From a virus: a DNA stretch of 26,644 bases. This document shows, piece after piece, positions 1 through 19,655 of this stretch. The notes under the pieces are model-generated. The model did no database searches. It worked only from the letters and a program-made list of their open reading frames with translations, and was not told the DNA's origin. Positions within the stretch are counted from its first letter, which is position 1. Each line of letters begins with the position of its first letter. Both the position numbers and the translations under genes were made by a program. The DNA lies in IMG/VR virus record IMGVR_UViG_3300017760_000066, positions 1 to 26,644 of that record; one strand, given 5' to 3'.

Positions 1-160
1 AGGCATTAATGTAAGTATTATAAGCAAGAGTGTCAATTAAGACCGAAAAGTTGGATCCTTCAAAGTCAAAGTCGGTAAAATTAGAATTTGAACGCAAATA
101 ATTCTTAATTTGCGTCTTAATTTGATCAAAATCTAGATCTGAGAATTTTGTGAGTGGCAT
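1..160 (-). CDS. gp6: Baseplate wedge subunit gp6, N-terminal part
   Basis: The gene starts with ATG at 160 and runs off the left edge, leaving 53 residues. It begins MPLTKFSDLDFDQIKTQIKN, which I recognise as the usual N-terminus of gp6 in T4-like cyanophages. In T4, gp6 dimers form the ring that joins the baseplate wedges. Its ATG overlaps the TAA stop of the gp25 gene (TAATG), so the two are probably translationally coupled, and gp25-gp6 is the expected order in these phages. The identification rests on the short N-terminus and the neighbour. Confidence 0.85.
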   Translation of the reverse strand, partial: MPLTKFSDLDFDQIKTQIKNYLRSNSNFTDFDFEGSNFSVLIDTLAYNTYINA

Positions 161-558
161 TATCTTGTTACTTGAAGGATAAACTCTAATTGTACCGGGG
201 TTCTAGGTTGCCCAACGATAAAATATGAGACCAATACGTTATATCCGTTTTGATCGTACTGAGGTCTCACTTCAATAGTGTTAATTTCCACTCTTGGTTC
301 AAAATTTTTAATTGTAACTTCAATATCTTTTTGAATTACGGACGCTGTACCATAATCTAACAGTTCAAAAAGACTTCTAGAAATTTGAGATCCTAATCTT
401 GGTTGAAAAGGACGCTCTCCTAGGGCAGTGAGCACCAGATTCCTTATAGAACGAGAAATAGCACGCTCATTTGACAGCGCAATTAGATCCCGAGTGATCG
501 GGTGCTTCATGAAAGACAAAGAAATGTCTTTAAATGCCCGTGAGACTGGTTGTGGCAC
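160..558 (-). CDS. gp25: Baseplate wedge subunit gp25 (GPW/gp25 family)
   Basis: This 132-residue protein has the usual length of T4 gp25, a lysozyme-like structural component of the baseplate wedge. Family signatures are the early segment around residues 20-55 (ITRDLIALSNERAISRSIRN, then GERPFQPRLGS) and the later FEPRVEI segment. It overlaps gp6 by TAATG. A late-promoter-like CTAAATA lies 25 bases upstream of its ATG, which suits a virion gene. Confidence 0.92.
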   Translation of the reverse strand: MPQPVSRAFKDISLSFMKHPITRDLIALSNERAISRSIRNLVLTALGERPFQPRLGSQISRSLFELLDYGTASVIQKDIEVTIKNFEPRVEINTIEVRPQYDQNGYNVLVSYFIVGQPRTPVQLEFILQVTR

Positions 559-2304: not shown

Positions 2305-2498
2305 TAAGAAGACTCTTCCGAACTCTTCACTAATTTGACTTTCTCATAGTTCAAATCAGACTCTTCATAGTCTGTTTTCATGAGACCCACCATGCCTTTC
2401 AGCGTTTCCCAGGTCTCCCTAAACTCTTCATTTGTTAGACTCGAATAAAGACATTTATCCTTAGCGTAAATGTGAAATCTATACTCGTTTGTAATCAT
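2301..2498 (-). CDS. Small acidic protein, function unknown (65 aa)
   Basis: The ORF starts MITNEYRFHIYAKDKCLYSS and is rich in Glu and Lys. The beginning looks like a short beta hairpin and the rest looks helical. It overlaps the cupin gene upstream by 20 bases and ends inside the -35 box of the next promoter. No family was recognised. Tight overlap with the cupin supports it as a real gene. Confidence 0.65.
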   Translation of the reverse strand: MITNEYRFHIYAKDKCLYSSLTNEEFRETWETLKGMVGLMKTDYEESDLNYEKVKLVKSSEESSY

Positions 2499-2832
2499 CT
2501 TTTAATCTTACAATGTCCTCTTCATTACATTGAGATCCTAACTGAACCTCAATAATAGTTATGCCGTTCTCACCTCCCTTCAACCGATGATGCTGTTTAG
2601 CATTTATTTTGTATTGACTGTGAGGTGTGGCATGATAACACCCTTCCCCAATAGTAACATAACCATCCCCGTCTACGCAGGTCCAATACTCTGCGCGATG
2701 AAAATGGTATTGTAGTGATAGTTGTTGATCTGGATGGACTACAAGTCTCTTTACCTTGTAACCTTCCTCTTCTAGGAGATTCTCATAATAACCCCATGGG
2801 CGTTCAAATTTCTCCGCGAAATTTTTTTCCAT
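2479..2832 (-). CDS. Cupin, mannose-6-phosphate isomerase type II-like
   Basis: The 117-residue protein matches the C-terminal isomerase domain of bifunctional ManC/PMI enzymes, which interconvert mannose 6-phosphate and fructose 6-phosphate. It opens with RPWGYYENLLEEEGYKVKRL. The cupin metal site is visible: H43 and H45 in QYHFHRAEYW, E48, and a later histidine at 81 or 82. The guanylyltransferase half is absent, so it is a stand-alone cupin; it may act on another sugar. The neighbouring glycosyltransferase-like gene suggests a shared role in surface glycan or virion sugar metabolism. Confidence 0.8.
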   Translation of the reverse strand: MEKNFAEKFERPWGYYENLLEEEGYKVKRLVVHPDQQLSLQYHFHRAEYWTCVDGDGYVTIGEGCYHATPHSQYKINAKQHHRLKGGENGITIIEVQLGSQCNEEDIVRLKDDYKRV

Positions 2833-3052: not shown

Positions 3053-3241
3053 TTAGTGATACGCTGCTTCCCAGAGTTCTTCTACATTTTCTGACAAATC
3101 TTCCACAGTGACTGTCAAGTTCTCTCCGCCGCCAATATCAAAAACCTTGTGAAAGTCTATCTGATGAACATCAAAGTCCGCAAAGACTTCGAAGTCTAAT
3201 GTGACACGGATCTGCTGCTTTTCTGCGTGGCTAGTGTTCAT
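3053..3241 (-). CDS. Small acidic protein, function unknown (62 aa)
   Basis: The ORF starts MNTSHAEKQQIRVTLDFEVF and is strongly acidic. It looks like alternating strands followed by a helix (VEDLSENVEELWEAAYH). It sits alone between two consensus promoters; the one at 3266-3294 starts RNA about 18 bases before its ATG. Expression from a strong early promoter suggests a host take-over role, but this is inference and no family was recognised. Confidence 0.65.
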   Translation of the reverse strand: MNTSHAEKQQIRVTLDFEVFADFDVHQIDFHKVFDIGGGENLTVTVEDLSENVEELWEAAYH

Positions 3242-3265
3242 CAGATTGGTGGTGGGTTCCTCTGT

Positions 3266-3294
3266 ATTATATAATAAATTTCCGAGACTGTCAA
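3266..3294 (-). promoter_or_regulatory. Consensus sigma70 promoter TTGACA-N17-TATAAT
   Basis: Minus-strand TTGACA (3294 to 3289), a 17-base spacer and TATAAT (3271 to 3266) again match the consensus fully. The predicted start near 3259 gives a short leader before the ATG at 3241. Confidence 0.85.
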
Positions 3295-3333
3295 GGTGTT
3301 TGTGTGGGTCTCAGGAAAAAATCGGCGGTGGGG

Positions 3334-3362
3334 TTGACAAAACTCTCTCCTCATGATACGCT
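3334..3362 (+). promoter_or_regulatory. Weak plus-strand promoter candidate
   Basis: TTGACA at 3334-3339 is followed after 17 bases by TACGCT, which keeps only the three most conserved -10 positions. It would point into the DnaA-box cluster and then run antisense to the small genes. No plus-strand gene lies downstream, so if active it would make an antisense or origin-priming RNA. Confidence 0.25.
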
Positions 3363-3409
3363 CGCTTAGATAACAACAACTCAGCACATTTACAAGACAA
3401 TAACAACAC

Positions 3410-3480
3410 TATTCCACAGGTTAATAACACTTTTCCACAACGATTGTGGATAACTTATAAAACAGTGACATATATTTATA
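3410..3480. other. DnaA-box cluster with AT-rich flank (origin-like)
   Basis: Three nonamers lie within 44 bases: TATTCCACA (3410-3418), TTTTCCACA (3431-3439) and TGTGGATAA (3445-3453, reverse of TTATCCACA). TTATCCACA is the E. coli DnaA consensus, and as I recall TTTTCCACA is the cyanobacterial form. The last two make a perfect inverted repeat, TCCACAA-CGA-TTGTGGA. A very AT-rich tract follows to about 3505. It contains TATAAATA on the minus strand (3480 to 3473), which could be a late box or just part of an unwinding element. The intergenic stretch 3242-3516 has no other gene that I can see. Confidence 0.5.
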
Positions 3481-3516
3481 ATACCATTTAAAACGTTATT
3501 TTAAGGTAAAACAGCA

Positions 3517-3681
3517 CTAAAACGCCAAATATACGTCATAATTGTCCTTATCTGGCACCATAGTCTTGATAACATGTAGTGCAGCATCTTCACCAATTAC
3601 AGTGACTTCTTGACGGGAAATATAACCACGTTTCTTATTCTTCTTCCATACGATTGTATATCGATTCGTTGTCTGTGTCAT
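3517..3681 (-). CDS. Small basic protein, function unknown (54 aa)
   Basis: The likely start is ATG at 3681 (MTQTTNRYTIVWKKNKKRGY); an ATG at 3705 adds eight residues and overlaps the upstream gene further. The protein alternates strands and basic turns and ends in YDVYLAF. It is the last gene of a run of small genes and precedes the origin-like region. No family recognised. Confidence 0.6.
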   Translation of the reverse strand: MTQTTNRYTIVWKKNKKRGYISRQEVTVIGEDAALHVIKTMVPDKDNYDVYLAF

Positions 3682-3907
3682 GGACGGATTTGCGAGACTT
3701 GACATAAGTGAGTTCAGACCATTGGTGAGGATAACAGAGTAATAAACAATGAATATTCTTGTGACGTTCTCTCTTCGTATAGGTACACTTTGGTTTAGGT
3801 TTTACATGTAGTTCGATCGTTATGTAATTACAATCAACGAAATATACCCATCCTTGAACATCTTTCCATATAACATAATCATTGACCTGGGGTTGATACT
3901 TACTCAT
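3635..3907 (-). CDS. Conserved small cyanophage protein (90 aa)
   Basis: The protein begins MSKYQPQVNDYVIWKDVQGW, suggesting an SH3-like barrel start, and contains KRERHKNIHCLLLCYPHQW, a motif I recognise from small cyanophage proteins. The Cys/His spacing (HCLLLCYPH) could bind a metal, but this is not certain. It overlaps its neighbours on both sides, and its start overlaps the end of the 97-residue gene by 8 bases. Confidence 0.72.
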   Translation of the reverse strand: MSKYQPQVNDYVIWKDVQGWVYFVDCNYITIELHVKPKPKCTYTKRERHKNIHCLLLCYPHQWSELTYVKSRKSVHDTDNESIYNRMEEE

Positions 3908-8640: not shown

Positions 8641-9327
8641 TTAGACAACTGGCATAGGGGTGAGGTTGATTGGGTTAATTGTATTGTAGTCTACTTTATT
8701 CTTCTGCTCAGTCACATTCTCAATGTCAAAGTATAGATCCATTGTCTCAACGGTGCCACTGTATTGGCATTCGAGAACATCATCCAATTTGGTACGATTC
8801 TTGGCACCAATCACATTATCAAACCCAACAACATCTCCTGCTGTGTTGAATCGTGGTGCAATACGTGGGAGAACACTAACGAATAGAATCTTCTCGATGG
8901 GTCTACAACCATCCGAGACAGGAGCATAATAGAGTCGTGCTGCCTCACCAATCGTAGTATTTGCATAATTCTTGATATTTTTGTTCACGTTGCTGTTGAT
9001 AGCCTTGGCAAGAATTGCCACCTTCATGTTATCATCAGCATCAAATCCTACGATGTCAATATCAAATGTGCCACCGAAGGCATCTTCTTTCAGTTGATAT
9101 TCAAACTCCCAACGATACTCTGCCATCTCAGGATTAGCATTGAGAATCTCATTTAGCAATGCTTTATGCAATTCATCAGTGCGCTTGCTGCTGCGAACGT
9201 TCTGGAATGAAGTAGTTAGAAACTCGGTGAGGAAGGGCATCGGTGTTTTGTTCGTTGGTACTATCATAGCAGCACCCTCACCCTGTTGCATGGGTAAGGG
9301 CTCCGGTTTGCGGATTGGCACAGTCAT
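8641..9327 (-). CDS. Possible PD-(D/E)XK-like protein beside helicase (228 aa)
   Basis: A long charged N-terminus leads to YRWEFEYQLKEDAFGGTFDI, then DIVGFDADDN and AILAKAINSNVNKN. The order acidic residue, FDIDI (D89/D91), then a strand ending in xAK (K108) resembles the core of restriction-type PD-(D/E)XK nucleases. The acid two residues before K108 is a leucine here, so catalysis may be lost or the fold misread. It overlaps the helicase stop by ATGA, so both are probably made from one mRNA. Confidence 0.5.
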   Translation of the reverse strand: MTVPIRKPEPLPMQQGEGAAMIVPTNKTPMPFLTEFLTTSFQNVRSSKRTDELHKALLNEILNANPEMAEYRWEFEYQLKEDAFGGTFDIDIVGFDADDNMKVAILAKAINSNVNKNIKNYANTTIGEAARLYYAPVSDGCRPIEKILFVSVLPRIAPRFNTAGDVVGFDNVIGAKNRTKLDDVLECQYSGTVETMDLYFDIENVTEQKNKVDYNTINPINLTPMPVV

Positions 9328-10532
9328 CGACGCACCACACTATCAAGCATCTCACCTTTCTCGAAGACGGTGTTAACAACTGACTGCAATGCTCGCTCGG
9401 TAGCAACACCAACCTGAGAATATACAGGCACGACACACAAACCAAACGTCTTAGATTCGTTGCCTGTACGCAATACACGACCGATAGTCTGTGTCATCTC
9501 AATCACGTTCATGTTGCGAAGGAAGATGACAGTTTCCAGTTCGCTGACGTTGATACCCTCAGAGAGAATAGAACGATGCAGAACAACAAACTTTTTCTCA
9601 GGATCGCGACCCCAAGCATTCAACGTCTCGAAGAATACCTCGCGATTGACTTTCTTACCATCGATGACTGCACCCGTCTTGGATGTGATGTAAAGGCATG
9701 AATAACCACGGACACCAAGATCTTTGGCAAAGTCAGTGTGTGCCATCAAGTTGATGAGTTGACGTGAAGTCTTGACACATACTAGAATCTTCTTGGTGTC
9801 AGTCTCATCAATTGTATCCATCACGTTTTCTGAATCAGTCTCGCATGAAATCATTCGGGAGTTCTTGTGAATATCAAACATCTTTGCTTGAATACGAGGA
9901 GGGATGATGTATCCACCTTCTACCAACTCAGGAGCAGAAACACGGGCAATGATTTGACCATAGACTGCCTCATCATTCATGCCTGGTTTATTGATAGTGA
10001 TCGAAGTCTTACGTGTGGCTGTGAAGAAGTAGCAACGATCTGCCTCGTAAGAGAAGAACTCAGTGGGAGGAAAAAAGTTACGCTTGACGCTATTGTGTGC
10101 CTCGTCAAAGTATATTGTGTTGACCTCAATGTCTGCCTCCATGATACGATGGAGAGAATTGTAGGTGGTGAAGATGATGACGTTCTCACCCATACTACGG
10201 GCGCAACCTGCATACAGATGAATCTTATCTGCCTTAGTGGTGCTAGTGTAGCGTGTTTCACCACTGTGAACGTGCATCACATGCAGATATGGGTCACTGT
10301 TGTTAGGATCAATGACCTCCATAAACTCGCTGCAAAGTTGTTCAGCAAGAAGAATACGAGGAGCAACAACAACTGTGGTGGTGCCGTTGTTGATACTATC
10401 CAGACAATTCTTGGTGTCTGTGATCATGCACATTGTCTTACCACCGCCAGTGGGGACAATCACTTGTCCTTTGTCATAGGAACCCATACGATTGACAATA
10501 CGTTGCTGATGGGGACGCAGTTGCATGAACAT
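9324..10532 (-). CDS. SF2 DEAH-type helicase (about 400 aa)
   Basis: Helicase motifs appear in order: Walker A PTGGGKT (residues 27-33), DEAH (143-146), TAT (171-173), SEGINVSE (motif V, near 324-331) and QTIGRVLR (motif VI, 348-355). The N-terminal LRPHQQRIVNRM is the Q-like region found in the UvsW/type I-III restriction helicase groups. The start may be 10532 or 10526 (MQLRP), only 9-15 bases from the predicted RNA start. It probably remodels recombination or replication intermediates, perhaps with the 228-residue neighbour. The length is short for UvsW. Confidence 0.85.
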   Translation of the reverse strand: MFMQLRPHQQRIVNRMGSYDKGQVIVPTGGGKTMCMITDTKNCLDSINNGTTTVVVAPRILLAEQLCSEFMEVIDPNNSDPYLHVMHVHSGETRYTSTTKADKIHLYAGCARSMGENVIIFTTYNSLHRIMEADIEVNTIYFDEAHNSVKRNFFPPTEFFSYEADRCYFFTATRKTSITINKPGMNDEAVYGQIIARVSAPELVEGGYIIPPRIQAKMFDIHKNSRMISCETDSENVMDTIDETDTKKILVCVKTSRQLINLMAHTDFAKDLGVRGYSCLYITSKTGAVIDGKKVNREVFFETLNAWGRDPEKKFVVLHRSILSEGINVSELETVIFLRNMNVIEMTQTIGRVLRTGNESKTFGLCVVPVYSQVGVATERALQSVVNTVFEKGEMLDSVVRR

Positions 10533-14309: not shown

Positions 14310-15301
14310 AACTCAGAGATTAACTTTCTTACAGAGGGATGATACTCTATTGTATCATAGATTTTGCACTTTGCATTCAGTTTATCCAATGCTTTATCTT
14401 TGGAATACAATTCCAATGGCACAGCATCAGTTATGATTCTTCCAGTAGAGTTACCATAGAACCAATCATCCCAATGTCTACCATGTTTTTCTGTCAACAG
14501 ATTTGATCTAAAATTGAGCATATACAACGATTCTAATAGTTCATCAGGTGTTTGTCTCTTATGTGGACACAGGAACAACTTAATCATACTCATGATGACA
14601 CTGCGATCATCACACCTGTCTATCCATAAGTTCTCAAACTTACTATGAATATCTTCTAACTTAGCATAGCTATTAACTGAACTTGTTGTGGTCTCATAGT
14701 AAATATCCCCTGCATCATAGTAACGAACATGAGCACCACTATAATATGCGTACATAGTCGCAGATGTGAACATTGGAAAGTAAAATGCCTGAAATCTTCC
14801 CATTGCAACAGCAAGACCCAACTGCCACTCTTCTACACCAGGATCATCAAAGATACTCATGATATGTAAGTCTTTCAATCCCTCATATGCAAAGGCATAG
14901 TACCAGTCTTGCTTCTGTTCTGCTGGTGCCATTGCAATAACAGGTCTAGGTGCATTTTCTACTAATGTTCTAATGGCATCATAATTTACCTGATTGAAAT
15001 CAACACCGGTTGCAACATCAATCTTAGGTAGAAAGATACATGTTCCCTGTCTTTCTTGTCTTGGCACAAGTGCATCAGCATATAGAAATGGACATGCACC
15101 TAGATGAACATACTTATCATTCTTAACAAGTTTGTCGGGAAGATATTCACTCCATGCATATACAGTGGAGCACATGAAGTCAGCATAAAATTCCTGCCGA
15201 CCCATTGTTTCTGTCTGGACACCAGGAATAAAGTTATAATCTAGGTATTGATCTGTTCCTGCCCAATAATTAAGGATCTCTTTTGTTCCAAAACGACTCA
15301 T
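14306..15301 (-). CDS. Possible glycosyltransferase-like protein A (331 aa)
   Basis: No family was recognised with confidence. The protein contains GACPFLYADAL near residue 68 and IFLPKIDV near residue 89, and later FYFPMFTSATMYAYYSGAHV. The same landmarks in the same order occur in the gene at 25497-26465 (CAPFVYGDAL, VFLPRTDW, CPLFCSTVLYATWCG), so the two are paralogues. The pattern of sheet-helix units and the Kdo-cassette setting suggest a GT-B-type sugar transferase, perhaps using CMP-Kdo, but this is inference. Its start overlaps the upstream gene by ATGA. Confidence 0.6.
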   Translation of the reverse strand: MSRFGTKEILNYWAGTDQYLDYNFIPGVQTETMGRQEFYADFMCSTVYAWSEYLPDKLVKNDKYVHLGACPFLYADALVPRQERQGTCIFLPKIDVATGVDFNQVNYDAIRTLVENAPRPVIAMAPAEQKQDWYYAFAYEGLKDLHIMSIFDDPGVEEWQLGLAVAMGRFQAFYFPMFTSATMYAYYSGAHVRYYDAGDIYYETTTSSVNSYAKLEDIHSKFENLWIDRCDDRSVIMSMIKLFLCPHKRQTPDELLESLYMLNFRSNLLTEKHGRHWDDWFYGNSTGRIITDAVPLELYSKDKALDKLNAKCKIYDTIEYHPSVRKLISEL

Positions 15302-19078: not shown

Positions 19079-19655
19079 GATACACACTCACATTAAAAGC
19101 AACTGAAATTCTATCTTCATCAGAATTATTTTTAGTTACAGAGTGATTTAAGTGCGATGGAAATAATATCAAAAGACCTACCTGTGGTTGCATGTAGAAC
19201 CAGTCATGTAATGTAAGTTCGTCTTTAAATTTTTGAGAGTATGCTCCCAACAATCTAGATTGTGTAAAACTATTGGGAGATTCAAAAACAATATTACCAC
19301 TATCTTTCGGAACCTTTAACCATAAAACACCAGACAAATCACATCCAGGATGATTATGAGAGTGATTATAATCTCCGGGATTGTTAATATTAAACCACAT
19401 ACTAGTCATCTTCATAGACGAATTTTTACTAAAAATTTCTCTATTATTAAAATATTCTTGTAGATATGAATGTATTACTTTACTGATAGGATTATCAACA
19501 CCATGATAATCATCAAAGGATTGCCAACCACCGGCATTTGATTTCTTCACACCCTCACTTATTTTACTCTCTTGGCGTGCATATTGAACCAACTCATCAA
19601 TATTAGGTATATTGAGATGTATGGTATGAATTGGACATGGAAATGTTAAGAACAT
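19071..19655 (-). CDS. 2OG-Fe(II) oxygenase-like, PF13759/TIGR02466 type
   Basis: This 194-residue protein carries NHSHNHPGCDLSGVLWLKVP (H98-H102), SGNIVFESP, a distal H171 (LNHSV) and R182 (DRISVAFNV). These are the landmarks of the same family as the gene downstream. The two overlap, so they look like an old tandem duplication. The substrate is unknown; phage fibres are plausible because of the setting. Confidence 0.74.
   Translation of the reverse strand: MFLTFPCPIHTIHLNIPNIDELVQYARQESKISEGVKKSNAGGWQSFDDYHGVDNPISKVIHSYLQEYFNNREIFSKNSSMKMTSMWFNINNPGDYNHSHNHPGCDLSGVLWLKVPKDSGNIVFESPNSFTQSRLLGAYSQKFKDELTLHDWFYMQPQVGLLILFPSHLNHSVTKNNSDEDRISVAFNVSVYHE

Follow-up and report, generated by a model that had tools for sequence, protein, structure and literature searches.

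A candidate replication origin with a host-type DnaA-box module in T4-like marine cyanophages

T4-like marine cyanophages carry a conserved intergenic element that is probably a replication origin in the T4 style, with a promoter and an unwinding element, and that in the phage studied here includes an oriC-like module for host DnaA. Arrays of DnaA boxes are present in about one-quarter of these phages, which suggests that the replication starter of the host has been borrowed. The DNA analysed, called the window, is a stretch of 26,644 nucleotides (IMG/VR virus record IMGVR_UViG_3300017760_000066, positions 1 to 26,644). It matches Synechococcus phages, and the gp25 and SF2 helicase genes identify its source as a T4-like cyanophage. 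The parts of the element and the landmark genes are listed in table 1.

Table 1. The element and its surroundings in the window.
Feature	Position	Strand	Basis or remark
gp25 baseplate wedge gene, landmark	160–558	-	Pfam PF04965, E 3e-14; phrog_261, E 2e-53
Left flanking gene, phrog_12516	3053–3241	-	
Sigma70-type putative early promoter, TTGACA-N17-TACGCT	3334–3362	+	extended -10 TG at 3354–3355; sequence only
CGCTTAG after the -10 hexamer, conserved; probable transcription start region	3363–3369	+	
Exchangeable module, here a DnaA-box array	3370–3453	+	alignment of ten close relatives; composition
DnaA-like box TATTCCACA, one mismatch	3410–3418	+	sequence reading
DnaA box TTTTCCACA, cyanobacterial consensus	3431–3439	+	PMC4674748
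DnaA box TTATCCACA	3445–3453	-	convergent with the box at 3431, 14 bp start to start
AT-rich block, candidate DNA unwinding element	3455–3504	.	least stable 0.1% of window 50-mers
TATAAATA, putative T4-type late promoter sequence toward gp25-gp6	3473–3480	-	sequence reading
Right flanking gene, phrog_1078	3517–3705	-	putative plus-strand transcript would be antisense to this gene
SF2 helicase gene (phrog_16), landmark on the other side of the element	9324–10532	-	

The element lies between genes, as originally noted (intergenic region 3242–3516). From its extended -10 promoter of sigma70 type, which runs into CGCTWAG, it continues through a variable module to an AT-rich block. The promoter hexamers, TTGACA (3334–3339) and TACGCT (3357–3362), are separated by 17 nt, with TG upstream of the second. 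A plus-strand promoter had been proposed and is present, not at the weak TGGATA/TATATT match (3447–3476) but at this unit. Its consensus across 81 relatives is TTGACAAactgcgcgtCTtATG.TACGCTCGCTtAG, and the TTGACA-N17-TACGCT arrangement is conserved in more than 100. The core TACGCTCGCTWAG occurs exactly in the window only at 3357–3369. Six of eight related records have it at the element, exactly or with one mismatch, and the remaining two have GCACGCTTAG; elsewhere in these records the promoter core always shows at least two mismatches, save for one match in SynMITS9220M01. The plus strand of the module is A/C-rich and G-poor (9% G). The AT-rich stretch said to adjoin the boxes is confirmed by its instability: the corresponding block falls within the least stable 0.005–0.08% of five complete genomes, and in 43 of 62 loci the most unstable 50-mer of the surroundings, taken 1 kb to each side, falls in this block. 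TATTTATA is enriched 17-fold in elements, and plus-strand TATAAATA occurs in none of them. The window also has two perfect minus-strand TTGACA-N17-TATAAT promoters (12/12), at 3294–3266 and 3048–3020; the former diverges from the promoter of the element, 40 bp away.

Pieces of the intergenic region were matched by blastn in S-BM3, S-SM2, P-SSM2, Sf-CH8, SynMITS9220M01 and others. Set side by side, the relatives have in common the promoter, CGCTWAG or a near form of it, a variable middle and the AT block, and most carry TATAAATA on the minus strand. Scans of IMG/VR with promoter patterns returned at least 119 plus 26 stretches. The site is fixed: in T4-like cyanophages the element lies between gp25-gp6 and the SF2 helicase gene and always points away from gp6. 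In all 58 IMG/VR loci with a gp25 match, gp25 (and gp6 where present) is upstream of and opposed to the promoter of the element, a count from which the second orientation in one fold-back contig (L022) was left out as an artefact. That contig folds back at the promoter (14788–14854) and so holds the element in both orientations, probably through misassembly. The positional counterpart of the window helicase is Syn9 gp75. The name UvsW was dropped for it, as the annotated uvsW of Syn9 sits elsewhere, beside uvsY. A gene for a mannose-6-phosphate isomerase C-terminal domain (2479–2832, minus strand; PF01050, E 3e-26) lies near the element and is retained in 11 relatives. A description of the element, or of a DnaA array in cyanophages, was not found in the open-access literature.

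Three DnaA-like nonamers within 44 bases, at 3410, 3431 and 3445, had been noted in the window and are present. Two are exact copies of TTWTCCACA and the third has one mismatch. The pair at 3431 and 3445 had been called a perfect inverted repeat; it is convergent, but not perfect, because the third bases differ (T versus A). There is strong support for reading them as host-type boxes: the DnaA box published for cyanobacteria is TTTTCCACA (PMC4674748), and boxes are concentrated in ordered arrays at a fixed position in many cyanophages. TTWTCCACA occurs 49 times in elements totalling 25 kb and 27 times in 830 kb of DNA outside them, a 60-fold enrichment; for 103 non-redundant loci the density is 1.95 per kb within elements and 0.033 per kb beyond them, and 21 of these elements hold at least two copies. 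TTTTCCACA is the dominant form in the relatives. Direct boxes mostly follow each other at 11–12 or 21 bp, and the array usually closes with an inverted box at 13–14 or 22–23 bp, spacings that correspond to steps of about one helical turn.

Carriers of the array include S-PM2, Syn9, S-SM2, S-BM3 and the window phage. The genomes of S-BM3, S-PM2, P-TIM68 and Syn9 (169–197 kb) contain a single convergent TTWTCCACA pair apiece, inside the element or in its close surroundings. The pair of P-TIM68 lies upstream of the promoter and not downstream, which counts against the origin reading. The three-box array occurs in only 45 of 2.9 million viral contigs in IMG/VR, and 34 of the 45 encode T4-like cyanophage proteins; contigs with few or none of these proteins include L330, L335, L344, L362 and L365. 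The same array is found in at least 118 contigs of bacterial genomes, and among the matches listed 71 of 118 have dnaA, dnaN or rpmH within a stretch of at most 8 kb. In the S-PM2 record NC_006820, tRNA-Leu and tRNA-Asn are annotated over the array (19177–19333; L209 3934–4090). The record LN828717 has no feature at this place, and the tRNAs of NC_006820 are possibly an annotation error.

The module between promoter and AT block is exchangeable. A rough sorting of 103 elements gives 24 of the DnaA type, 21 with ATTGAGAA, four TGTGN4CACA-like, four with GGATANTATCC and 50 others, many of which have different direct repeats. In no element do the DnaA and ATTGAGAA types occur together. DnaA is not a general requirement, since about three-quarters of the relatives are without the array, a point against the origin model. 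When ten close relatives of the window are aligned, the flanks are conserved and the middle is replaced. On a gp25 tree the DnaA state must have changed five times or more on well-supported branches, and the two members of one pair share an identical gp25 but not this state. As read from these sequences, close relatives differ through exchange of just the module. Repeats of ATTGAGAA/TTCTCAAT, in both orientations, stand in the place of the DnaA boxes in L018, L024, L052, L062, L093, L121 and others, with a 13-fold enrichment over flanking DNA. One clade (L133, L138, L144, L156) has several copies of TGTGCCCCACA or TGTGTTACA(CA) there. Tandem duplications of the initial transcribed region, such as CACAAGACCTGGAGGGGTTTCTAAGAATGTAAA, are located between promoter and AT block in L020, L021, L096, L112, L118 and L129. 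Short direct repeats of 10–11 bp, GACACTTGAGA / GACACTCAGAG, follow the AT block rather than precede it in L039, L049, L059 and L130.

A T4-style origin with an initiator module is proposed on the grounds of its T4 origin anatomy, its oriE-like polarity, the unstable AT block and a putative transcript that would be G-poor and non-coding. (i) The host-sigma70-type promoter would fire early in infection, opposite to the late genes. (ii) The G-poor transcript would enter the unwinding element, stay hybridised and prime the leading strand, as at T4 oriF/oriG. (iii) The module between promoter and unwinding element would bind an initiator; in the window phage and about one-quarter of its relatives this module is an oriC-like array of host DnaA boxes. 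(iv) Host DnaA would bind cooperatively on one helix face and help to melt the AT block. (v) Until the T4-type primosome of the phage takes over, DnaA would keep the origin from closing or else load the helicase of the host. (vi) Later, transcription from the opposing TATAAATA late promoter would run back across the element and silence it. Two points bear on steps (ii) and (v). A stable hybrid (R-loop) would not be favoured by a G-poor transcript, which counts against the origin model. Syn9 encodes its own gp59, gp41 and gp61, so that DnaA-dependent helicase loading would in principle be unneeded.

The T4 origins are the natural comparison. T4 oriF and oriG are units of about 100 bp in which a promoter is followed by an AT-rich downstream unwinding element and an R-loop serves as primer, and oriE has an early promoter and iterons (PMC3016281). 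The order of promoter and AT-rich block is the same in the element. The promoters of oriF and oriG, however, are MotA-dependent middle promoters, whereas that of the element looks by sequence like a sigma70-type TTGACA promoter with a consensus -35, and these T4 origins are without a known initiator array. With oriE the element shares a place upstream of gene 6, a reading direction away from it, a putative early primer RNA antisense to late genes, and repeats within the origin; its early promoter and the late promoter opposing it are recognized by their motifs. The likeness is one of position, with no alignable DNA, and direct reading of oriE reveals no evident copy of the element. The repeats are DnaA boxes here and other sequences in the relatives, not the T4 iteron. 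In addition, oriE lies in gene 5, with repEA/repEB on the primer strand, whereas the element is intergenic and has no enriched plus-strand ORF. DnaA boxes had been expected to be unusual for T4, and indeed its five boxes lie scattered, with no cluster.

The array itself resembles a cyanobacterial-type oriC, in which TTTTCCACA boxes, direct and inverted, are likewise clustered beside an AT-rich stretch, and the three-box array also lies near dnaA/dnaN in bacteria. Unlike a bacterial oriC, the element has small phage genes instead of dnaA/dnaN as neighbours, few boxes and no consistent GC-skew turning point; its array is coupled to a T4-like promoter unit, in a phage that is lytic and has a replisome of its own. 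Iteron plasmid origins (RK2, pSC101, P1 type) bring DnaA boxes, repeats and an AT-rich region together in one unit. All three are also found in the element family. In the plasmids the two kinds of box occur together and a plasmid Rep protein is present, whereas DnaA boxes and ATTGAGAA repeats were not seen together in the elements; no Rep gene for the cyanophage element was identified.

GC skew had been named as a check on the original prediction of a replication origin, and it gives no support. In six complete relatives (five genomes and Syn9) there is no consistent turning point at the element. The skew is monotone, with a local break in Sf-CH8 only, and follows transcription, or gene direction, around the whole genome. 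This result either speaks against an origin or is uninformative where transcription dominates. Skew was rejected as support and kept out of the favourable evidence because it tracks gene direction and leaves the element unmarked. The origin reading is partly supported, through its anatomy: the promoter, the unstable AT block, the oriE-like position and polarity and the oriC-like array make use as an origin probable.

Other functions have been considered for the same parts. One is a regulatory switch with no role as an origin, in which the early promoter and the late promoter facing it would be controlled, by transcription-factor action or by a roadblock, through DnaA or whatever protein recognizes the alternative repeats. 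In its favour, DnaA regulates promoters in bacteria, and the array has a conserved promoter upstream of it and an opposing late-promoter sequence next to it. Such a switch is unlikely: by itself it leaves unexplained the extreme instability of the AT block and the retention of a transcript that does not code for protein. ORFs are not enriched in this transcript (21 of 77 versus 28 of 86 controls), on which ground a protein-coding role was rejected, and in the window no plus-strand ORF of at least 50 aa starts in the element or just downstream. A second proposal is that the array titrates host DnaA, as datA does in E. coli, and halts initiation on the host chromosome as phage copies accumulate. 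In its favour, oriented, spaced, high-consensus boxes are found in many phages and would multiply with phage copies. It is made quite unlikely by the small number of boxes, only two to five per element, by the tie of the array to a promoter and unwinding element, and by the unrelated repeats that replace it at the same place in relatives.

The transcript could itself be the functional product, with the inverted boxes forming an RNA hairpin. The promoter is conserved, the lack of ORF enrichment fits a non-coding RNA, and the inverted pair is able to fold. With a fold z-score of -1.2 the transcript is not markedly structured, and there is no Rfam match. The loop between the two boxes measures 4–5 or 13–14 nt, two values about one helical turn apart. 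Of 39 distinct convergent pairs, 14 have arms that are not identical; the differences fall mainly on positions 3 and 6, and none of them is compensated. This count is biased towards consensus arms because the arrays were found by consensus. Uncompensated differences of this kind fit protein sites on DNA and not an RNA stem. A hairpin or Rfam family was rejected, and a functional RNA is judged very unlikely. Chance can be dismissed as the source of the DnaA-like nonamers in this AT-rich DNA between genes. A single box is expected to turn up about once in each window (mean 1.1), but two exact boxes at most 40 bp apart arose in one of 2000 windows simulated with a first-order Markov model. The enrichment and ordered spacing across relatives refute chance, and the boxes of T4, similar in size to many relatives, are scattered.

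The preferred reading of the element as a T4-style origin with a DnaA module leads to a broader proposal, which is plausible though held with less than even confidence. One conserved origin chassis, an early promoter and an unwinding element, may accept exchangeable initiator cassettes: an oriC mimic for host DnaA in some phages, and ATTGAGAA, TGTGN4CACA or other repeats for other proteins in the rest. If this is true, the choice of initiator is a fast-evolving, host-facing trait. A phage of this kind would be, to our knowledge, the first in the T4 superfamily to start replication through the host initiator. For the model phages Syn9 and S-PM2 the element offers an exact origin candidate, at about 52.6 kb in Syn9 and about 19.2 kb in S-PM2, and one that a known architecture, a T4 origin plus an oriC array, would explain; for Syn9 a single theta origin has been predicted (cited in PMC2984593). 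Through such an origin, the replication of abundant ocean viruses would be linked to a cell-cycle protein of the host.
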